Source: Asanoa ishikariensis
Lineage (GTDB): Bacteria; Actinomycetota; Actinomycetes; Mycobacteriales; Micromonosporaceae
Length of the DNA: 64,000 nt
Reading direction: 5' to 3'
Assembly: GCF_900107455.1 (NCBI RefSeq)
Contig: NZ_FNQB01000002.1
Location: 186,001 to 250,000 of the forward strand
Every line of letters begins with the position of its first letter. Within the stretch, counting starts at the first letter, position 1. The position numbers were made by a program, and so were the translations under genes. This document shows, piece after piece, positions 45,349 through 56,339 of this stretch. Below the pieces are notes generated by a model, which did no database searches, was not told the DNA's origin, and was given only the letters and a program-made list of their open reading frames with translations.

Positions 45349-45723
45349 CGGCCGTCTTCGCCACGTGCGTATTCGGGCGTTTCGGAAGTCCAATCCAGAC
45401 TTAACGGCTTTTTCTCATCGTCCCTTCGTACTAATCCACCGTGCGCTTCCCCTATAAGGGGCATTGCGCCGCCGTCGAACTGGCGCCCGTGCACCGGAAG
45501 AAGTACGGACGGTCGGAGATCGACGCTCACCTAGGGTGACGCGGGGTGAACGCGTTGCTGACAAACGGACTGAACATCGCATCAGTACGGCGATCACGGA
45601 CAGGGTGGGCTTTCTCTTTCCCCGGCGGACGTGATGGAATGCCGGGGGTCCGACCCGCCCGGGTCGGCCGATCGGCGGTGCCCGTGCGCAATTTCCTGCG
45701 GCGCCGAACCGGAGGGCGGTGAC
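45349..45723 (+). promoter_or_regulatory. 375-base intergenic region upstream of the conservon-type operon
   Basis: No gene seen. It holds two hairpins: CCCCT-ATA-AGGGG (45449-45461) and CCGACCC-GCCC-GGGTCGG (45650-45667). The second lies in what is probably the kinase mRNA leader. No confident promoter was identified. GGAGGG just before the kinase GTG is its ribosome binding site. Confidence 0.5.
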
Positions 45724-48700
45724 GTGAGCAAGCGGCCGAAGACGGCGAATTCCTTCATGTCGCGTCTCCGCCGGCCCACCAGCCGGCTTCGTGATCTGCC
45801 GATCTGGTCGAAGCTCGGCCTCATCATGATCGTCCCGACCCTGGCGACGATCGTGGTTGGCACCAACGGCTTGATCGACCACATCGACACGTCGGAGAAC
45901 GCGGACCAGGCACGTGACCTCGCCGTAGTGGTGGAGGCGTCTGGGGACCTCGTCCAGAATCTGCAGAACGAGCGGGCCGCGGCGGCGATGCTGCTCGGTG
46001 CCGAGGGCAAGGGCGCCATCACCAAGTACAAGACGGCGTTCGAGAGCTCGCAGCAGGCGGTCGACCGAGTGGTCAACAGCTACTCGACGCAGCGCGCCTC
46101 GCTCAACGACCTGCCGACCAACTTCAACACCACGCTCGCGCAGATCGACGACGGTCTCCAGGGCCTGCCGGGCGTGCGCAGCCAGGTGACGAGCAACAAG
46201 TTCGCGTTCACGGACGCGGCCCGGGCCTACAACGCCCTTGTCGACAACCTGCTCAACCTCCGCGACGGCGCCGCTCAGCTGGCCGCCAACACCTCGCTGA
46301 GTGAGCGGATGCGTGCGGTCGCGGCCGTCGCACGGCAGAAGGAGTTCCTCTCGCAGGAGCGCCTCGTCGTGTTGCAGGCCTACAGCGCCGGCAGCATGAA
46401 CCAGAACCTCAAGAAAGAGTTCATCGCCTCGCAGACCGGCCAGCTACAGGCCGCCGAGACGTTCATCTCGGTCGCGACGGTGACCGAGGAAGAGCAGTAC
46501 AACCAGACCGTGGCCGGCTCGGACCTGCGGTCGTCGACCGCGTTCGCGGGCTGGATCACCGGCGTCATGCCCGAGAGCGGCGATCTCAGTCAGGCGCCGT
46601 TCAAGATTGACCCGTGGGACAGCGCGCTGCTGGGTCACAGCCGGTTGATCCGCAGCGTCGAGCGCCGCCTGGACAACACCGTGGTCGACACCGCCACGAC
46701 CCTGCGCGACGACGTGCAGCGTCAGGTCCTCATCGAGACCGGCCTGCTGCTCGCCATGCTGCTGCTGGCCATCCTCTTCGCGTGGTTGGTCGCCCGGTCC
46801 ATGGCGCGGTCGCTGCGCGAGCTGCGGCACGGCGCCCTCGCGGTCGCGCAATACGGCCTGCCGCAGGCGGTGGCCCGACTACGTGACCCGGCGCTGTCCA
46901 CCCAGATGTCACCGGCCCAGTTGGCCAACCAGATCGCCGAGCCGCTGCCGGTCCGGAGCAAGGACGAGTTCGGCCAGGTGACCGAGGCGTTCAACGCGGT
47001 CCACCTGGAAGCCGTCCGCACCGCGGCCGAGCAGGCCGCCCTGCGTGCCTCCGTCGCGACGATGTTCGTCAACCTCGCCCGCCGTTCGCAGATCCTGGTC
47101 GACCGGCTGATCGGTCACCTGGACCGGCTCGAGCGCGGTGAGGAAGACCCGGACCGCCTGGCCGAGCTGTTCCAGCTCGACCACCTGGCCACCCGGATGC
47201 GCCGCAACGACGAAAACCTCCTGGTGCTGGCCGGCGCCGACTCGACGCGTATTCAGCGTGAGCCGGCCGCCCTGATCGACGTGCTGCGCGCCGCGCAGTC
47301 CGAGGTCGAGCACTACACCCGGATCGAGTTCGGCGTCATCGACCGGGACATCGAGGTCGCCGCGCACGCGGTCAACGACCTCGTCCACCTGGTCGCCGAG
47401 CTGTTCGACAACGCGACCGCGTTCTCCCCGCCCGACTCGAGTGTCATGGTCGAGGCCCGGCGGATCGGCGAGCACTCCGTGCTCTATGTCGAGGACCGCG
47501 GCATCGGCATCACCGCCGACCAGCTCAACGACCTCAACGAGCGGCTCGCCACACCTCCCATGGTGGACGTGGCGGTCTCCCGGATGATGGGTCTGGTCGT
47601 GGTCGCGCGGCTGGCCGCGCGGCACGGCGTCAAGGTCGAGCTGCGTCCGGCTTCCGACCGCGGCACTGTCGCGGACGTCGCCCTGCCCACCTCGGTGCTC
47701 GTGCCTCGTGGACTGACGGGCCGTGGTGGGTACGAGCTGCCACCGCAGCACCCTGCCGCGCAGCCGCAGCCGCAGCAGCCCGCGCGTTCGCCGTTCCCGG
47801 CGCCGCTGGCGCTGGAGAGCGGGCCGATGACGCGGTCCGACCGGGAGCTCGCCGGCGCGAGTGGCGGTCTCGCCAGCGCGTTCGGTGGCCGCCCCGGCGA
47901 CGCGCCGTCCAACGGTTTCAACGGAGCCAACGGCAACGGCAATGGCAACGGCCGCCCCGGCGCGATGCCGGCCTGGTCCGACCTCACCGGTGCCGGTCCG
48001 CAGGGCGGGCGTCCCAACGACCCGTTCGGCGGCCCGCGCGACGAGTCGCTGCCGAATCGCCGTGCGACCGACGGCTGGGCGATGGAGGGTGAGGTGACCG
48101 CGGGTCCGCAGTCGCCCGCTATCCCGCGCCAGACGCCGCGCGACAACGGCGGCACGTCTCCGGTGTTCTCGGCCCCGCCGATGATCTCGGTGCCGCCGGT
48201 CATCTCCGTGCCCCCGTCGTCTCCCGGGCCGGCGGGCGCACCGCGCCAGCCCGAGCCCTGGGAGCAGGGTGGCCCGACGCTGCCGCCGAGCGCGCCGGCC
48301 GGCCCGCCGATCGCCATGCCGGACAGCCCGGTCGTCCCTGGTCGGTCCAGCGGCCTGCCGGGGCGTCCGACCGGTCAGCCGGAGAGCCCGAGCGTCCCGT
48401 TCGCCCAGCCGCCGGCGGCTTATCCGTCGCCCGCTGCGACACCGCAGCCGACGGCGTTTGCCGGAGGCAGTGGCTTCGCGGGCATGCCGTCGGGTGGTCA
48501 GGCGCCGCCGGCCTGGCCGCCGGTCGCGGCCGAGCCGCAGCCGGCCGTCGACCACCTCGCGGCCGCCGTCGACATGACCGCCGAGTTGCCCCGGGTCGAG
48601 CGCCCGGCGGCGGCTCCGCAGCAGCCCGCCGTCCCGCCGATCATCCCGGCCGCCAACAAGGCCCGGTTCGCCGACGAGACGATGGAACTGCCGATCTTCC

Positions 48701-49422
48701 GTGAGCTCGAGTCGGCGTGGTTCCGCACCCGTCGGGCCGCGGCGGAAGAGAGTTCGCTGACAGCCTCGACTCCGAGCACCGCGGAAGCTGCCCCCGCAGC
48801 CACTGCGGCGCCGGCGACCGCCGATGCCCGGATGGGCAGCGGCGCCACTGCGGCACCTACGCAGCAGTTCGCCACCGTCGAGGCCACCCAGCGGCTCACC
48901 AGCTCGCCGCAGTCGCGGATGGCTCCGGCCGGGGGCAGCCCCCTCGCCGGTGCGGCAGGCAGCGGCCTGCCGACCCGTCCGTCGACTCCGAGCCCGAGCG
49001 GGCCTACGCCGCAGCAGCCGCGCTCCAACGGCCTCTCCGACGCCACCAACGGCAACGGCAACGGCAACGGTGCTGCCCGTAGGCCGGAGCAGCAGGAGTC
49101 GTGGCAGACGGCTGCCGACGACGGATGGCGGGCAGCTTCCGCCATCTCGGAGATGGAAGTGAACGAAACCACGACGGCCGGCCTGCCCAAGCGGGTTCCG
49201 ATGGCGCAGCTTGTGCCGGGCGGGGTCGACAAGTCGGCCACCTCGGTCAAGCAGCGCTCGCCGGAAGCTGTTCGCGGGCTGCTCTCGGCATACCACCGAG
49301 GTGTGCAGCGCGGTCGCACCCAGCCCAAGGACGAAACTTCGGATACGACTCCGGCCGGGCAGCCCTCCCAAGCTGGCCACGGTCCGGGTGCCGGGAGCGG
49401 TCAGAAGGAGCACGAACGATGA
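45724..49422 (+). CDS. NIT-domain sensor histidine kinase with long disordered tail (CvnA-like)
   Basis: A 1232-residue membrane kinase. TM1 is at about 31-47 ([16 protein letters not shown]). An extracellular nitrate/nitrite-sensing-type helical domain (about 60-330) and TM2 (about 338-358) follow, then a HAMP-like linker. The phosphoacceptor region is around [19 protein letters not shown] (about 480-500). In the ATPase domain, [15 protein letters not shown] is the N box and EDRGIGIT the G box. Residues 680-1130 are low-complexity Pro/Ala/Gly with Asn-Gly repeats. The C-terminus holds [22 protein letters not shown] and [12 protein letters not shown] at 45724 follows GGAGGG. Its stop overlaps the Roadblock gene (ATGA). 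No response regulator is adjacent, as expected for conservons. Confidence 0.93.
47929..47952 (+). repeat. Asn-Gly codon repeat inside the kinase tail
   Basis: Four AAYGGC units in a row encode (Asn-Gly)4. The unit returns at 49048-49071 in the same gene. They mark flexible linkers. Confidence 0.85.
49048..49071 (+). repeat. Second Asn-Gly codon repeat inside the kinase tail
   Basis: Four AACGGC/T units encode (Asn-Gly)4 just before the conserved C-terminal motif of the kinase. Confidence 0.85.
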
Positions 49423-49823
49423 CAACCACGCAAGATCTCGGGTGGCTGCTCGCCAACTTCGCCGACCGCGTGCCGGGTGTCGCACACGCGATCGCGGTTT
49501 CCGCCGACGGTCTGCTCCTCGCCTCGTCGCGGGATCTTCCGCGCGACCGGGCCGACCAGTTGGCCGCGATCTCGTCCGGCCTGGTCAGCTTGACCCAGGG
49601 CGCGGCGCGCTGCTTCGAAGGCGGTGCGGTGCTGCAGAACGTGGTCGAGATGGACAACGGGTTCCTCTTCCTGATGTCGATCTCCGACGGCTCCTCGTTC
49701 GCGGTTCTGGCCGCTCGCAGTTGCGACGTCGGTCAGGTCGGCTACGAGATGGCGTTGCTGGTCGACCGGGTCGGTGACGCACTGACCCCGGCGCCTCGCA
49801 CCGCCGCGGGAATGCTCGGCTAG
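49419..49823 (+). CDS. Roadblock/LC7 domain protein (CvnB-like)
   Basis: A 134-residue single-domain Roadblock/LC7 protein: [35 protein letters not shown], then [22 protein letters not shown] and [19 protein letters not shown]. Such proteins regulate small GTPases, often as MglB-type activating or scaffolding partners. ATG 49419 overlaps the kinase stop. The gene is part of the fixed order kinase, Roadblock, DUF742, GTPase. Confidence 0.95.
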
Positions 49824-49921
49824 TCGTTCCGGCAACGGAACGGTGCACGACAACAACACACAGATCCGACAGGCTCCGAACGATCGGGCCTGCGGCACGG
49901 ATGCGAAGGGGGTGAATGGCG

Positions 49922-50299
49922 ATGACCGACCGGGATGAGCCAACCGGCGCGCTGGTACGGCCGTACGCCGTCACCCGCGGACGCACCAGGCCGAGGCTAG
50001 AGATCGCCCTCGAGGCTCTCGTCGAAACAACGGTCCGCGGCCGAACCGCCAACTCCACCAAGGGTGGGGGAGGCCGCGAGCACCAATACATCGCCGCGTT
50101 GTGCGACGGCCGGTTGCAGTCGCTCGCGGAGATCGCGGCTCGGATGCAGCTCCCATTGGGTGTTGCCCGGGTCCTGATCGCCGACATGGCCGCCGACGGA
50201 CTCGTCGCGGTCTACGAACCGACCTCACTGGAAGACACGAACGATGCGGTGGGCACTGAACTGCTGGAGAGGGTGCTGAGTGGACTTCGCAGGCTCTGA
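49922..50299 (+). CDS. DUF742 protein (CvnC-like)
   Basis: A 125-residue protein with the DUF742 pattern: DEPTGALVRPYAVTRGRTRPRLEIALEALVETT, then a winged-helix-like part LQSLAEIAARMQLPLGVARVLIADMAADGLVAVYEP. It may bind DNA or bridge the Roadblock protein and the GTPase; its role is unproven. ATG 49922 has AAGGGGG nine bases upstream; ATG 49916 is only three bases from it. It overlaps the GTPase gene by 20 bases. Confidence 0.93.
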   Translation: MTDRDEPTGALVRPYAVTRGRTRPRLEIALEALVETTVRGRTANSTKGGGGREHQYIAALCDGRLQSLAEIAARMQLPLGVARVLIADMAADGLVAVYEPTSLEDTNDAVGTELLERVLSGLRRL

Positions 50300-50885
50300 C
50301 GTGACGCACCGCCCGAGCGCTGGCCGTGTGACGTCGGCGAAGATTGTCATCGCCGGCGGGTTCGGCGTCGGCAAGACCACGCTGGTCGGGTCGGTGTCGG
50401 AGATCACGCCGCTGACGACCGAGGCAATCATGACCTCGGCCGGCGTCGGCGTCGACGACACCCGGCAGGTGCCGGGCAAGACGACGACCGTCGCCATGGA
50501 CTTCGGCCGGATCACGATCGACCGTGACCTGATCCTCTATCTGTTCGGAACACCTGGCCAGACGCGGTTCTGGTTCATGTGGGACGAGCTGGTGCGAGGT
50601 GCGATCGGGGCGATCGTGCTGGTCGACACACGCCGACTAGCCGACTGCTTCGCGGCGATCGACTTCTTCGAGCATCGCCGGCTGCCGTACCTGGTGGCCA
50701 TCAACTGCTTCGACGGGGTGCAGTACCACGACCCCCAGGACGTTCGCGACGCCTTGGCGATCTCCAGCGACGTCCCGGTCGTGGCCTGCGACGCCCGCAA
50801 CCGTGACTCGACCAAGCACGTTCTGATCAGCCTGGTCGAGTACGTGCTCAGCATGCGCCGGTCCCGCGCGGTCGCCCCGGCCTGA
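50280..50885 (+). CDS. Ras-like GTP-binding protein (CvnD-like)
   Basis: A 201-residue small GTPase. G1 is GGFGVGKTT (about 26-34), the switch region has DDTRQVPGKTTTVAMDFG, and G3 is LFGTPGQTRFWFMWDE (Thr-Pro-Gly-Gln in place of Ala-Gly-Gln). The base-recognition site is the weak NCFDG rather than NKxD, usual for this family. GTG at 50280 has GGAGAGGG upstream. It is the last gene of the conservon-type operon, before a perfect terminator. Confidence 0.95.
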   Translation: MDFAGSDVTHRPSAGRVTSAKIVIAGGFGVGKTTLVGSVSEITPLTTEAIMTSAGVGVDDTRQVPGKTTTVAMDFGRITIDRDLILYLFGTPGQTRFWFMWDELVRGAIGAIVLVDTRRLADCFAAIDFFEHRRLPYLVAINCFDGVQYHDPQDVRDALAISSDVPVVACDARNRDSTKHVLISLVEYVLSMRRSRAVAPA

Positions 50886-50967: not shown

Positions 50968-52176
50968 TCAGCTGATGCGGATCCAGGCGCCGCTGGTGAC
51001 CTCGAAGACGGCCAGCGAGTCGGCCGCCATGCCGCCGTGCGCAATCGGCGTGAACTCGTACGAGCCGGCGATGCCCTCGGCGGTGAGGTTCTCCAGGTAG
51101 ACCCGGATGCGACCGCGGTCGACGCTTCGGCCCAGCCGGGCGGCGTTGGCGAGCAGACGCACCGCGTCGGAGCTGTAGGGCGCGAAGCCGCGGAACGCGC
51201 CGTGCTTCTGGATGTAGCGGTAGATGAAGTCGCGCCGGTCGAGGTCAGCCATCGTCGTGTCGGTCAGTGACGTGCCGGCCAGGGACGCGGGGTGCACAGC
51301 CAGCGCACCCGAGGCCTGGGCCTGCTTGTCTTTGTCGGCAAGCGTGTCGTCGGCGACGCCGCCCGGGTCGAAGATGATCTGTCCGCCGTAGCTCGCACCG
51401 CGGAGGGCCGCCAGGGCCGCGCCGGAGTCAGGCGCTTGTGCCCAGATGATGACGGCTTCCGGGTTCTTCTCGACGATCTTTTCGGCGGCCGAGCTGAAGT
51501 TGCTGCCCGTGTTAGGAAGCTCGGACTCCACCTTGATGATGCTGCGGAGCTTGCTGCGCAGGGCACCGACGCCGGTTTTGCCGTACTCGCCGCCGGAGTA
51601 GATGACGCCGACCGTGTTGTGCTTGCGGGCGAGGAGCAGGTCGCTCATCATCTCGACGACGTCTTTGGCGTTGGGCTGCAGTTTGTAGATGTAGGTGCGG
51701 GCGGTGAGCGGCGTGACGATGTTGTCGGCCGACCCGAGGGAGATGAACGGCACCTGCTCGGTCTGAGCCACCGTCAGCATCGCCAGCGAGGTCTCGGCCA
51801 GCACGCCGCCGAGCATCGCGTGGACGCCCTCTTTCTGGATGAGCTCGGTCGCCTGCTGCTCGGCGGTCTCGGGACGGCTGCCGTTGTCGCGGTAGATCAT
51901 CTTGATCTTGCGGCGCAGGTTGCCGACCGGCACGCCCTCTTCGTTGAGCGTGTCGACGGTGATCCGCAGCGCCCGCTCCTGCAGCACGCCGTGCGCGGCG
52001 CCGGGGCCCGTCAGCTCAAGGCTGGCGCCGATGATGAGCTCTTCGGAGCCTCTGGTGGTGGGGCCGGGACTGTTGGTCTCGTCGGATCCGCAGGCGGCGG
52101 TCAAGAGGGTCCCAGCGGTGGCGACGAGGACTCCTCGCCGCGTCAGCTGGGTCCGGCCGATCGCCGGCTTCGCCAT
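50968..52176 (-). CDS. Branched-chain-amino-acid-type ABC substrate-binding lipoprotein
   Basis: A 402-residue receptor-family (LivJ-type, Peripla_BP_6) protein. A twin-arginine-like signal (LTRRGVLVATAGTLLTAAC) ends in a lipobox cysteine (about C32). The mature part has LIIGASLELTGPGAAHG, VHAMLGGVLAETSLAM, VPFISLGSADNIV and SGGEYGKTGVGALR. No permease or ATPase is nearby, so it may be a sensor-type binding protein rather than part of a transporter here. ATG at 52176 follows GAAAGGCGG. It is the last gene of the minus-strand group facing the conservon-type operon. Confidence 0.92.
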   Translation of the reverse strand: MAKPAIGRTQLTRRGVLVATAGTLLTAACGSDETNSPGPTTRGSEELIIGASLELTGPGAAHGVLQERALRITVDTLNEEGVPVGNLRRKIKMIYRDNGSRPETAEQQATELIQKEGVHAMLGGVLAETSLAMLTVAQTEQVPFISLGSADNIVTPLTARTYIYKLQPNAKDVVEMMSDLLLARKHNTVGVIYSGGEYGKTGVGALRSKLRSIIKVESELPNTGSNFSSAAEKIVEKNPEAVIIWAQAPDSGAALAALRGASYGGQIIFDPGGVADDTLADKDKQAQASGALAVHPASLAGTSLTDTTMADLDRRDFIYRYIQKHGAFRGFAPYSSDAVRLLANAARLGRSVDRGRIRVYLENLTAEGIAGSYEFTPIAHGGMAADSLAVFEVTSGAWIRIS

Positions 52177-52284
52177 CTGGTGCCGCCTTTCAACAGGCCG
52201 GCGACGCCCGTCGCCAGATACCACGCGGGTATGCTCCCGGGCCAATAGGCCCGCAGTCAAATCACAGTCATCCCTGTCGGGAAG

Positions 52285-55221
52285 TCACGACCGGGCCGAC
52301 CGGTACTCGTACTCCTGGCTTTCGTCGCGTCCACCGTGGTCACGGCTGAAGTCCCAGCCACCGGCCGCCTCACGACCCGGGCGACCGCCGACCGCGTAGC
52401 CGCCGATCTCCTGGCCGCGGCGCCAGCCACGGAAGTAGCCGGTGGTGTGCGCCGCGATGCTGGCGGCGTCCCGGACGATCCGCAGTGGCCGCTCGTCGCG
52501 CAACGGCGAGCCGGGCACCAGGTTGGCCTGCGGCACCCGCTTCGGCAGGCCCGACTGCGTCTCGAGGCCGATCGACGGCGAGGAGGCCTTCTCGGCCGCA
52601 CGCCAGCCGTTGTCGGCGACCGACGCCCAGGCGAGGTCTTCGCTCTCGTCGGGGTGACCGGTGAACCACGCGGACCGGGCCGCCGCGAAGATCAGCAGGC
52701 CTTCGTCGCCCTCGTCGTTGGAGACCGGCGGTGCGCTGATGCCGATCGGGAGCTGCGGGTGGCTCCCGGTGTCGGTCGCGGTCTCCACCAGACGCAACGG
52801 AGGCGTCTCGTAGCGCGCGGCATAGTCGTCGCGGTTGCGCCGGTCGTCGCGACCGCGCGACCGGTTCTCTCGCGAGCTGTCATCGCGCAGCGCGCGGTCG
52901 GCCAGCGGCGGGGGCTCGACCAAGCGCAGGATCGGCGGCTCCGGCGGCATGTCGTCGGCCAGCCACGGCGGCGGCACCCGGTCGTCGCCGATGGACGAGT
53001 AGGTGGGCCGGTCGAGCTCGCTCGGCGGCAGGTCGCTCAGGTCCGGGAAGCCGTTGGCCCGCTCGTCCGTGGTGTTGTCGACGAGCGGCCAGTTGGCCCG
53101 CGCGCCCGGCTCAGGGCGCGGTGCGGGCACCGGAACGCTGAGGTCGGTGGCCTGGAACCCGGTGACCGGCGGCTCGGGCGGAGGCGGCGGTGTGGCGGCC
53201 GGGCGGCCGTTGGCCCGCGGCGGGATCACGGTCGGGCGCTTGCGCTCGGCGCGGGCCGAGTTGATCGCCGCGTTGGTCAGCGTCGCCCGGAACGGCTCGC
53301 CGGCCTCGGCCGGCGGCACGGTGGGCCGCTGCGCCGGGATCGGCGTCATGCCGGGCGGCGGTGGCGGCGCGGAGATGGGCTTGTTGACCGGGCTGGCCGA
53401 CACCGGACGGCCGGGCAGCGGCACCCTGGTCGCGGCCGGCGAAAGCGGCGCGGCCGGCAGATGCGGAGCCGGCGGCAGGTGCGGAGCCGGCGGCAGGTGC
53501 GTCTCCGGCAGGTGCGGCGTGCCGGGCAGGCGCGGGGCACTGGGGAAGCGAGACGCGGCCGGCGACAGCGGTGCGGCAGGCGACAGCGGCGCGGCCGGCG
53601 ACGGCAGGTGCGGCGTGCTCGGGAAGCGGGACGCGGCCGACGAGCCCTCTGCCGCGGTCGACCCGGTGCGCAAACGTGCCGCGGCCGGCACGTGCGGCGC
53701 GGCCGGTGACGACGGCGCGGCCGGCATGGGCGCCGGCGGCTGGAAGGTGGCCGGGGTCGGCGGGTCCGATAGCTGCGGCAAAGCGGTTTCGCCGGTGGGC
53801 TGGTAGAGGCTGGTGCCGTCGAAGCCGGTGGACCAGGCATGGCCGGGGTTGCGCGAGGGCATCGGAGTGCCACCGGCCGGCGTGGGCGCGTTGAGCGCCG
53901 CCGCGGGCGGCTCCGCCGAACGGGCGGCACTGCGGGACTCGGCCGAACGAGCCGGTGTGCGTGGCTCGCCCGAGCGGCTCGTGGTGCGCGGAGAGGCCGG
54001 GTGGCGCGGCGCGTTCGGCGGCCGCGACGGGCTGGCCGCGCGCTGCGGCTCGGCCGGTTGCGACGGCTCGGCGAACGGCGCGGAGGCCGTCGTGGACAGC
54101 GGAGTCGGTGCGGTCGGCGGCGGCGCCACGGGAGCGGGAGCGACCGGCGGGGTAGTCAGCGCGCGCGGCGTGGTGGTCGCCGCGGCGGGCTCCGGGCGAT
54201 GCCGGCGGCCGGTGGTGCCGCGCTCGGGCAGCGGCAGCGGCAGCGCGTGCAGCCCGGCGGGTGTCGTCGTGGCCGGCTCGTTCGGCTCGTCCACCGCGGC
54301 ACGGCGCATCGTCCGGCGCGGCACAGCGGTGAGCGGGGTCGTGCGGGCGGCCAGCGTGGCCACCAACGCCGCGCAGCCTTCGTCACACGAACGCACGGCG
54401 GCGACGGCCTGCCGCACGGCATCGGCGGAGGCGCTGGCGAGGCTCTTGTTGACGGTGCCGCGGCGCGGTGTCTCGGCGATGGCGACCCGCAGCGCGGTGA
54501 TCGCCTCGGCGACGGTCGTCGCGTCGCCGACACCCTCGGCGGTCAGCCGTTTGGCGACGGCCTCGGCGGCCGGCGGCAGGTCACGGCCACGGGCTGCGGT
54601 GCCGGAGACCAGGCCGGGCTCGGGCAGCGCGTCGAGGACCGCGAGGGTCAGCGGCGCGGCCGGGTCGGAATAGGCGCGCAGGGCGGCGGGATAAAGCTCG
54701 CGGAGCACCTCCCGCAGGGTCGCCGCGGCGGAGTGCCGGCCGCCGGCGAGCGCGGAGTGCGCGGCCAGGATCGGCCGGTAGGGGACGAGGTCACGGGACA
54801 CCGGAAGGCCGACGGCGAAGATGGCACCCGCCTGCAGCGCACGGGCCAGCCCGACCGCGCGACGCTCGGCCGCGGAGGACTCCATCTCCTCTATCGACTC
54901 GTCGTCGGCGAACCGCTCGGCGAAGTCGTCGACCGCGTCGTCGTCGGCGATGGCCAGGGGGCGACCGGCCGCGCTGAGCAGCGAAGTCACCTCGTGGTCG
55001 TCGCTGTCGGCGGCGATCGCGGCGGAGCCTGGGCCGTTGGCCCGCTCGGCGAGCAAGGCGCCAAGCTGGGCGTAACCCGCCGGGTCGTCGGTGATCTCGC
55101 AGACGTCGAGCAACCGCCCGGCGTCGTCAACAACAGCAGCCGTCAGGCCGGTCCCGGCAACAGCCGGCCGACCCGTCGATTCCGCCGATGCGAGACCGCA
55201 GTACACCCGCACGAGCGCCAC
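52285..55221 (-). CDS. Degenerate IS110-transposase-like protein fused to a disordered linker and kinase-type tail
   Basis: A 978-residue protein. Residues 1-300 resemble IS110-family transposases: VRVYCGLASAES, VVDDAGRLLDVCEITDDPAGYAQLGALL, IAADSDDHEVTSLL, then LREVLRELYPAALRAYSDP and LDALPEPG. The acidic residue expected after GI/L in the first strand is alanine, so catalysis is doubtful. Residues 320-850 are Pro/Ala/Ser-rich. The C-terminus holds [23 protein letters not shown] and YFRGWRRGQ, closely matching the tail of the kinase at 45724. The GTG at 55221 has GGAGGA seven bases upstream and is preferred to GTG 55245. It looks domesticated, not mobile. Confidence 0.75.
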   Translation of the reverse strand: MALVRVYCGLASAESTGRPAVAGTGLTAAVVDDAGRLLDVCEITDDPAGYAQLGALLAERANGPGSAAIAADSDDHEVTSLLSAAGRPLAIADDDAVDDFAERFADDESIEEMESSAAERRAVGLARALQAGAIFAVGLPVSRDLVPYRPILAAHSALAGGRHSAAATLREVLRELYPAALRAYSDPAAPLTLAVLDALPEPGLVSGTAARGRDLPPAAEAVAKRLTAEGVGDATTVAEAITALRVAIAETPRRGTVNKSLASASADAVRQAVAAVRSCDEGCAALVATLAARTTPLTAVPRRTMRRAAVDEPNEPATTTPAGLHALPLPLPERGTTGRRHRPEPAAATTTPRALTTPPVAPAPVAPPPTAPTPLSTTASAPFAEPSQPAEPQRAASPSRPPNAPRHPASPRTTSRSGEPRTPARSAESRSAARSAEPPAAALNAPTPAGGTPMPSRNPGHAWSTGFDGTSLYQPTGETALPQLSDPPTPATFQPPAPMPAAPSSPAAPHVPAAARLRTGSTAAEGSSAASRFPSTPHLPSPAAPLSPAAPLSPAASRFPSAPRLPGTPHLPETHLPPAPHLPPAPHLPAAPLSPAATRVPLPGRPVSASPVNKPISAPPPPPGMTPIPAQRPTVPPAEAGEPFRATLTNAAINSARAERKRPTVIPPRANGRPAATPPPPPEPPVTGFQATDLSVPVPAPRPEPGARANWPLVDNTTDERANGFPDLSDLPPSELDRPTYSSIGDDRVPPPWLADDMPPEPPILRLVEPPPLADRALRDDSSRENRSRGRDDRRNRDDYAARYETPPLRLVETATDTGSHPQLPIGISAPPVSNDEGDEGLLIFAAARSAWFTGHPDESEDLAWASVADNGWRAAEKASSPSIGLETQSGLPKRVPQANLVPGSPLRDERPLRIVRDAASIAAHTTGYFRGWRRGQEIGGYAVGGRPGREAAGGWDFSRDHGGRDESQEYEYRSARS
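53445..53625 (-). repeat. Pro/Ala-rich coding repeats in the IS110-like protein
   Basis: GC-rich imperfect repeats encode tandem HLPPAP, PLSPAA and RFPSxP units. Tandem cggcaggtgcggagc-type units are visible at about 53457-53505. They form a disordered linker and are a likely place for length variation between strains. Confidence 0.75.
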
Positions 55222-55283
55222 GTTGTCGTCCTCCTCCCCGGGCACATCTCGTGTGCCAAGGACTGATGGTCCCTGGTTAGGGG

Positions 55284-56339
55284 TCAGTCGCGCCAGTCCA
55301 CAGCGGCAGAGATCTTGCCGATAATCGTGCGCCAGCCCAAACTTGCGGTTTGTGCCCCGATTTTCCGGAGTCGTCGGCGTGCCATGAAGCCGCTGATTCC
55401 GCCGTTGACCACGCCACGCAGTGCTTCGTCGAGGTCGTCGAGGCTGTTACCAGGTGACAGCATGTCGAGTACCGAGGGCAGGCGCAACGCGTACGACAGG
55501 TCGCGCGCGACCTCGCCGGCCTCGATGATGAGCGGCGGGTCCCAACTGTCGTGGCCGCCACGCAGGTTCTCCACCACGAGGTCGAGCTCGTAGGAGTCCT
55601 CGTCGAGCGGGGCGATGTTGACCGGCTCGACCCGTTCGGCCAGGGTCGCCCAGTTGTCGACCTGAGCGAGGTCGTGCGGCGCGCCGGAACGGATGAAGCT
55701 GACCAGGCCCTCGGCGCTGCGGAACAGCAGGAGCTTGCCGCGGTGGGTGAGGAAGACGGGGACCTCTTCGGACTCCTCTTCTTCCTCTTCCTCCTCGACT
55801 GCCTCGTCCTCGGCGTCAGCGTCGGCCTCGGCGGTCTCGTCCGCGTCCTCGTCGGCCGCGTCGTCGTCCTCGTCGCGGGCCTTGCGGCGCTCTTCCTTGC
55901 CGGCCGCCTCGGCCTGCTCGGCAAGCTCCTCGTCGGTGAAGAGGTCGGCGTCGTCTTCCTCTTCGTCCTGACGGGCGCGCGCGGCGAAAAGGTCGTCCTC
56001 TTCGCGGTCCGACGTGTCGGTCGGCGTCAGCTCGGTGGACATCCGGTACGCGCGCAGCGTGAAGCCGGTGCCCGCGGGCAGCGCGATCTCGACGGGGTCG
56101 ATCCGCAGCTCATCCCAGAATGCGCGCTGGTCCTCGGGGTCGACGCCGTCGTCGGCTTCGTCCGCCTCATCGGCGTCTTCGGTGTCGATCGGCTCGTCGA
56201 TCGCCTCGACCGGCTCGGTCGTCGCAGCCGGCTCGGGCGCCGCGGGCGCGTCGCCTTCGGCGGTGGTCGCCTCGACCTCGGCCGCTGGCTCGTCCTGGGA
56301 CGGCGACTTGGCCTTGGACCGGTTGGACTGGCGCGCCAC
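55284..56339 (-). CDS. Highly acidic conserved protein of unknown function
   Basis: A 351-residue soluble protein. Residues 1-65 and 105-195 are rich in Glu, Asp and Ala, including a run of eight glutamates. A folded C-terminal half (about 195-351) reads VPVFLTHRGKLLLFRSAEGLVSFIRSGAPHDLAQ, then LVVENLRGGHDSWDPPLIIEAGEVARDLSYAL and LDDLDEALRGVVNGGISGFMARRRLRKIG. I know no named family. GTG at 56339 has GGAGG six bases upstream. It lies 62 bases ahead of the IS110-like gene on the same strand, so the two are probably co-expressed. Confidence 0.82.
   Translation of the reverse strand: MARQSNRSKAKSPSQDEPAAEVEATTAEGDAPAAPEPAATTEPVEAIDEPIDTEDADEADEADDGVDPEDQRAFWDELRIDPVEIALPAGTGFTLRAYRMSTELTPTDTSDREEDDLFAARARQDEEEDDADLFTDEELAEQAEAAGKEERRKARDEDDDAADEDADETAEADADAEDEAVEEEEEEEESEEVPVFLTHRGKLLLFRSAEGLVSFIRSGAPHDLAQVDNWATLAERVEPVNIAPLDEDSYELDLVVENLRGGHDSWDPPLIIEAGEVARDLSYALRLPSVLDMLSPGNSLDDLDEALRGVVNGGISGFMARRRLRKIGAQTASLGWRTIIGKISAAVDWRD

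Follow-up and report, generated by a model that had tools for sequence, protein, structure and literature searches.

An IS110-derived protein with a CvnA-type C-terminal tail encoded next to a conservon in Asanoa ishikariensis

The 64,000-nucleotide (nt) stretch of the Asanoa ishikariensis genome analyzed here (contig NZ_FNQB01000002.1, positions 186,001 to 250,000, referred to as the window) carries a complete conservon, whose genes for a kinase, a Roadblock protein, a DUF742 protein, and a Ras-like GTPase were assigned with Pfam, and, convergent with it, a gene for a protein that combines a degenerate IS110-like head, a long Pro/Ala-rich linker, and a C-terminal tail of the kind found in the conservon kinase CvnA (Table 1). 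The host, a member of Micromonosporaceae, has a genome of 9.09 Mb. The kinase gene is encoded on the opposite strand, 2.9 kb from the IS110-like gene, a distance noted (“3 kb away”) in an earlier interpretation of the DNA letters, referred to below as the sequence-only reading. An alternative first GTG at 55245 would extend the open reading frame (ORF) of the IS110-like gene to 52285-55245 (986 amino acids [aa]); the start of the 978-aa form, at 55221, has a good ribosome-binding site, with the Shine-Dalgarno-like GGGGAGGAGG located 8 nt before its GTG.

Table 1. Features of the IS110-like gene, the convergent conservon, and the flanking genes (window coordinates)
Feature	Coordinates	Strand	Basis or remark
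IS110-derived, CvnA-tailed protein, 978 aa	52285..55221	-	ORF call, orthologues
N-terminal domain: degenerate IS110 RuvC-like fold and helical (coiled-coil) part	54316..55236	-	stretch used in alignments; AlphaFold model, fold searches
Pro/Ala-rich linker, about 530 aa	52717..54315	-	lengths compared in orthologue ORFs
C-terminal tail common to CvnA kinases, four motifs	52288..52716	-	BLASTP, profiles
Tail motif i, LLIFAAARSAWF	52663..52698	-	overlooked in the sequence-only reading
Tail motif ii, ADNGWRAA	52594..52617	-	BLASTP against the kinase
Tail motif iii, GLPKRVPQANLVPG, includes LPxR	52510..52551	-	profile; LPxR published for conservon kinases (passages of PMC4316618)
Tail motif iv, YFRGWRRGQ	52411..52437	-	BLASTP against the kinase
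CvnA conservon kinase (NIT, HAMP, HATPase_c)	45631..49422	+	Pfam; upstream start uncertain
Tail motifs i-iv of the CvnA kinase	48688-48723, 49114-49137, 49180-49221, 49291-49317	+
CvnB, Roadblock/LC7 protein, MglB type	49413..49823	+	Pfam PF03259, E = 2.5e-21
CvnC, DUF742	49916..50299	+	Pfam PF05331, E = 2.2e-29
CvnD, Ras-like GTPase	50280..50885	+	Pfam PF03029, E = 2.2e-32; name CvnD from operon place
Periplasmic substrate-binding protein, directly downstream of the IS110-like gene	50968..52260	-	Pfam PF13458, E = 2.2e-31; synteny
Immediate upstream neighbor of the IS110-like gene: acidic protein, C-terminal domain SatS-like	55284..56339	-	synteny; weak SatS similarity

The tail of the window protein is homologous to the tails of the conservon (CvnA) kinases. 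In a single BLASTP comparison, the window protein and the neighboring kinase are 37% identical over 82 residues (E = 5e-11), and the aligned part is the tail. The sequence-only reading described three motifs that follow the same order and spacing in both proteins and took the tail to be a shared module. The motifs, their order, and the first distance (14 residues between ADxGWRAA and GLPKRVP in either protein) hold, as does the idea of a shared module; the distance to the next motif differs by one residue (24 versus 23), and a fourth shared motif, located upstream of the three, had been missed. Among ORFs that bear the LPxR-type motif, this motif i, with the pattern L-[L/P]-IF-x4-SAWF, is present in all 62 from kinases and in 72 of 74 from orthologues. 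The LPxR motif itself is known from the C-terminus of conservon kinases; the authors who described it were cautious about its function and noted it because Group 2 MglA/MglB proteins are without a conserved arginine finger (passages of PMC4316618). A profile built from the tails of window-type proteins only (10 rows) retrieved 82 kinase ORFs among 10,358 ORFs, with E values from 9e-18 to 7e-8, and found no match in reversed or shuffled copies up to E = 10; a profile of 8 kinase tails retrieved 77 orthologue ORFs (E from 1e-13 to 7e-9), with the best decoy at 0.0088. All these counts for motifs and profiles, like those for linkers below, are of ORFs and not of species, as some genomes are represented under two locus numbers (e.g., L017 and L057). 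Because each one-sided profile finds the other side with clean decoys, the likeness of the tails is not due to chance.

The A. ishikariensis genome encodes four tail carriers, namely the window protein and three ORFs that score as conservon kinases and are each followed immediately by a Roadblock gene. A search of a 296-genome sample of the phylum together with this genome, of the kind proposed in the sequence-only reading, led to 32 fetched loci, two of which encode the window-type protein. The 26 others with E < 1e-4 are all located directly before a Roadblock gene, and a kinase core is visible in 24 of them. Four weak matches (L184-L187, E from 1.5e-4 to 9e-4) have neither a Roadblock gene nor a kinase and were taken as chance; the cut-off of 1e-4 was set after these matches had been seen, and L159 (E = 9e-5, with a Roadblock gene next to it) falls just inside it. 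The window protein itself has no Pfam match to the histidine-kinase ATPase core, and its best 19-residue hydropathy mean of 1.55 (versus 2.58 in the kinase) reveals no transmembrane-like stretch.

In a number of relatives, the window-type tail is followed by a Roadblock gene of its own. Such second Roadblock genes were detected in 18 of the 32 family genomes examined, with tail-plus-Roadblock pairs in 11 genera; since the 32 genomes were chosen by hand, most of them for their divergent heads, this fraction is no estimate of the frequency in the family. At all 18 loci that have it, the second Roadblock gene is located directly behind the window-type tail (the gap is 0 to 19 nt at 17 loci and 125 nt at one), which is the place that CvnB occupies behind CvnA. 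Four of these genomes (G009, G012, G081, and G300) supplied profile rows and were first noticed by the adjacency itself; with these set aside, the remaining 14 of 14 are an independent test. The pair is kept even in genomes whose best tail carrier of kinase size is distant, e.g., about 176 kb away in G009. This consistent adjacency and its persistence far from the kinase indicate that tail and Roadblock are inherited as a unit, attached to two different heads. In the window, the gene that follows the tail encodes a substrate-binding protein and not a Roadblock protein; candidates for a second Roadblock gene elsewhere in this genome were rejected, the best matches being its own CvnB (38% identity) and four other Roadblock genes (30 to 36%). 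The two second Roadblock proteins detected earliest share 38 and 40% identity with CvnB. Roadblock proteins encoded after the IS110-like gene (L013, L014, L153-L155, and L188-L205) form a diverged second clade of the MglB type, with LGVYERSLSMLL at the start of the five that were aligned, and may belong to the orphan MglB sequences of actinobacteria to which passages of PMC4316618 refer. Two Phytohabitans chromosomes have frame changes in the kinase-tail/Roadblock stretch (L117, 13681-14758; L118, 13108-14472), which could be sequencing errors or real decay; their Roadblock part is broken, so these loci were not used for docking.

The RuvC-like and helical parts of the window protein are of IS110 ancestry. 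The approximately 300 N-terminal residues match IS110 transposases at E = 1e-19 in a profile-profile comparison (hhalign), HMMER also matches the head to the IS110 RuvC-like domain (DEDD_Tnp_IS110), and a fold search with a head model built without IS110 sequences ranked the ISCro4 and IS621 recombinases at the top, if with modest scores. A single-sequence Pfam scan of the window protein produced no IS110 domain match at E ≤ 1, and the N-domain profile retrieved nothing above chance level from PDB sequences. In an unrooted tree of 24 rows, a single branch with support of 100/100 separates the heads from the IS110 transposases. The 16 IS110-like ORFs were hand-picked from weak matches of the head search, and 5 of them were scanned with Pfam; the IS110 alignment excludes L139 and L142, whose ORFs are short or cut. 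The sequence-only reading had described a degenerate IS110-like N-terminus in which an acid of the first strand was replaced, and had called for a profile search and a check of the DEDD acids; both assertions agree with the profile and fold matches and with the residues described next.

According to passages of PMC11208158, the acids D11, E60, D102, and D105 of IS621 and the serine S241 of its Tnp domain are each required. The corresponding DEDD positions of the window protein are occupied by Ala (55191-55189), Asp (55008-55006), Ala (54870-54868), and Arg (54861-54859), i.e., three of the four acids, including the first-strand Asp, are lost, and the fourth is changed from Glu to Asp. When 11 heads were aligned to 13 IS110 transposases (L150 being excluded), the first Asp is replaced by Ala or Thr and the Glu by Asp in 11 of 11 heads; the columns of the third and fourth acids shift by a few residues between aligners, and neither aligner has an Asp of the window protein at these positions. 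In the most divergent heads (L014, G009, and genus g18, L153-L155), a D-x-x-D-like stretch is still present close to the positions of the last two acids, so the active site may have decayed in steps. The Tnp domain PF02371, which carries the catalytic Ser, was found by Pfam in 5 of 5 IS110 controls and was detected neither in the window protein nor in 3 of 3 divergent relatives. Judging from these residues, the active site of the head is dead, and because the residues needed in IS621 are lost and the Tnp domain is absent, the protein cannot work as a recombinase. The intergenic room around the gene, 62 nt upstream and about 25 nt downstream, leaves little space for a bridge-RNA region, and an Rfam scan gave no match, a result compatible with a bridge RNA supplied from elsewhere. 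The possibility of an active or recently active IS110 element was ruled out by the dead site, the single copy, and the lack of any PF01548 match in the A. ishikariensis genome.

The head is nearly universal in the family. At E ≤ 1e-20, it was found in 197 of 200 Micromonosporaceae genomes, representing 43 of 44 genera, as a single match in 194 of the 197 and as two matches in G728, G741, and G743. The three negative genomes are fragmented assemblies (360 to 780 contigs), of which G772 contains a short tail-bearing ORF, G715 a 903-aa tail carrier, and G804 none. All 80 named loci have the same upstream neighbor, and all 60 with enough DNA have the convergent GTPase gene of the conservon (the other 20 end before the conservon region); a kinase ORF was matched at 54 of the 80. 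In comparisons with four other genomes of the genus, the ratio of nonsynonymous to synonymous substitution rates (dN/dS) is 0.13 to 0.16 for the head and 0.11 to 0.16 for the tail. The gene thus has the hallmarks of a domesticated transposase, being immobile, nearly always single copy, clade-wide, under purifying selection, and catalytically decayed, and displays none of the signs of mobility, such as several copies in scattered places.

The linker, for which the sequence-only reading gave about 500 residues, a figure close to the measured length, varies from 90 to 628 aa (median, 351) among 70 orthologue ORFs. By eye, the stretches PPPPPG.TPI, GEPFRATLT, and PPWLADD.P.EPP.LRLVEPPPL recur in the linkers of several orthologues from Asanoa and from the Micromonospora clade and are possibly further binding motifs.

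As for the flanking genes, the substrate-binding protein gene separates the IS110-like gene from the conservon at 28 of the 80 named loci (at least one of which has only a fragment), those of Asanoa and of some others, and was not seen at the other named loci. Given this distribution, it was rejected as a component of the system and is probably a passenger. The constant adjacency of the upstream gene (80 of 80 named loci) suggests a functional link with the IS110-like gene. Its acidic product weakly resembles the mycobacterial export chaperone SatS in NCBIfam searches: the whole protein matches at E = 3.7e-9, with its best-matching stretch in the acidic region and hence partly compositional, and the last 162 residues, from the C-terminal domain, match at 5.6e-5; both scores are far under the curated cut-off. 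Foldseek placed SatS (6dnm) third, with E = 0.93. A promoter scan yielded one pattern match and a terminator scan two, neither of which was used.

Among known systems, the window protein shares the RuvC-like head and the following helical part, by profile and by fold, with the IS110/IS1111 recombinases IS621 and ISCro4 but, unlike them, has no DEDD site, Tnp domain, or flanking noncoding bridge-RNA region, is nearly always single copy and syntenic, and has a different C-terminus. With the CvnA kinases it shares the whole tail, including LPxR, and, in relatives with a second Roadblock gene, the position of that gene directly behind the tail, whereas the NIT, HAMP, HATPase, and transmembrane-like parts are absent and the head is transposase derived. 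Like the conservon accessories CvnE (P450) and CvnF (GAF), it is an extra protein beside a conservon; in contrast to them, its gene is convergent and outside the operon, and the neighboring kinase has a NIT domain, whereas CvnE and CvnF occur overwhelmingly with kinases that lack a sensory domain (passages of PMC13343842). An accessory of the CvnE/CvnF type was ruled out, as neither Pfam nor NCBIfam detects a P450 or GAF domain in the window protein. A purely functional analogy, with no sequence relation claimed, could be drawn with RomY of Myxococcus, described in passages of PMC9481161 as a separate protein that stimulates the GTPase-activating protein (GAP) MglB, acting on a Roadblock GAP together with a Ras-like GTPase.

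We consider it likely that the window protein is a domesticated IS110 head with a dead active site, joined by a long disordered tether to a CvnA-type tail that would engage the Roadblock/Ras-like GTPase module. The tail would bind the Roadblock protein and/or the GTPase CvnD, with the LPxR arginine placed near the nucleotide site, and through such binding the protein could recruit or tune the G-protein switch, either competing or cooperating with the membrane kinase. The head would be soluble and, with the IS110 coiled coil as its probable dimer interface, would provide valency or a second input. The gene probably arose by fusion of an IS110 gene fragment to the tail-encoding end of a duplicated cvnA beside its cvnB; that duplicate cvnB (ROB2) would have been lost later in the lineage that includes Micromonospora and Asanoa, after which the protein would act on the neighboring conservon. 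The proposal of the sequence-only reading, a transposase-derived protein recruited into conservon signaling, is supported by the IS110 head, the CvnA tail, the fixation in the family, and the Roadblock adjacency, which together suggest that an old transposase is now a signaling adaptor.

Among the alternatives, the protein could be a mere competitor or decoy, in which the tail occupies CvnB (or CvnD) and keeps the membrane kinase off, while the head is no more than a stable, soluble carrier. The presence of all four motifs in the order of the neighboring kinase, the lack of a transmembrane-like stretch, and a linker that is free to vary in length while head and tail are not would suit such a role; however, a pure decoy would need neither a dedicated second Roadblock gene nor a head under the selection measured here, and we regard this reading as unlikely. 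A similarly low probability is assigned to the idea that the head, like that of archaeal Nop5 in box C/D small nucleolar ribonucleoproteins (a dead RuvC domain with a coiled coil, accompanied there by an RNA-binding Nop part; no sequence relation is claimed), binds RNA or DNA, so that the tail brings in the G-protein module or the GTPase state controls binding, and signaling has its output on nucleic acid. The more specific proposal, in which the head, descended from an RNA-guided recombinase, sits on RNA or DNA, the tail holds the Roadblock/GTPase pair, and nucleic acid gates conservon signaling in Micromonosporaceae, instead of or besides the membrane kinase, is quite speculative. Finally, empty single-sequence domain scans (Pfam and NCBIfam) and the biased composition of the linkers could be taken to mean that the tail is a coincidental or generic Pro/Ala-rich terminus of an unrelated pseudotransposase that happens to be near a conservon. 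The reciprocal profiles with clean decoys, the Roadblock genes behind tails of both kinds (18 of 18 loci for the second Roadblock gene, 14 of 14 independently of the seeds), the purifying selection, and the occurrence in 197 of 200 genomes make this extremely improbable; a low-complexity coincidence, or a tail sequence common in unrelated proteins, is ruled out by the profiles and adjacencies.

Conservons are without a response regulator (passages of PMC4316618), and the route of the signal from their kinases to the Roadblock/GTPase pair is described as poorly understood in passages of PMC13343842, where a term search of the main text found no mention of C-terminal, tail, proline, or transposase. 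No description of a window-type protein was seen among the papers listed by searches of the open-access literature on conservons, Roadblock/MglB proteins, IS110, and transposase-derived signaling. Because a second, unrelated protein bears only the tail of the kinase, the part that likely passes on the kinase signal has been isolated by nature, and the natural tail-plus-Roadblock gene pairs make direct testing with small soluble proteins possible. The window protein and its orthologues would also exemplify the conversion of a bridge-recombinase (IS110) head into a signaling component that became fixed in almost an entire bacterial family.
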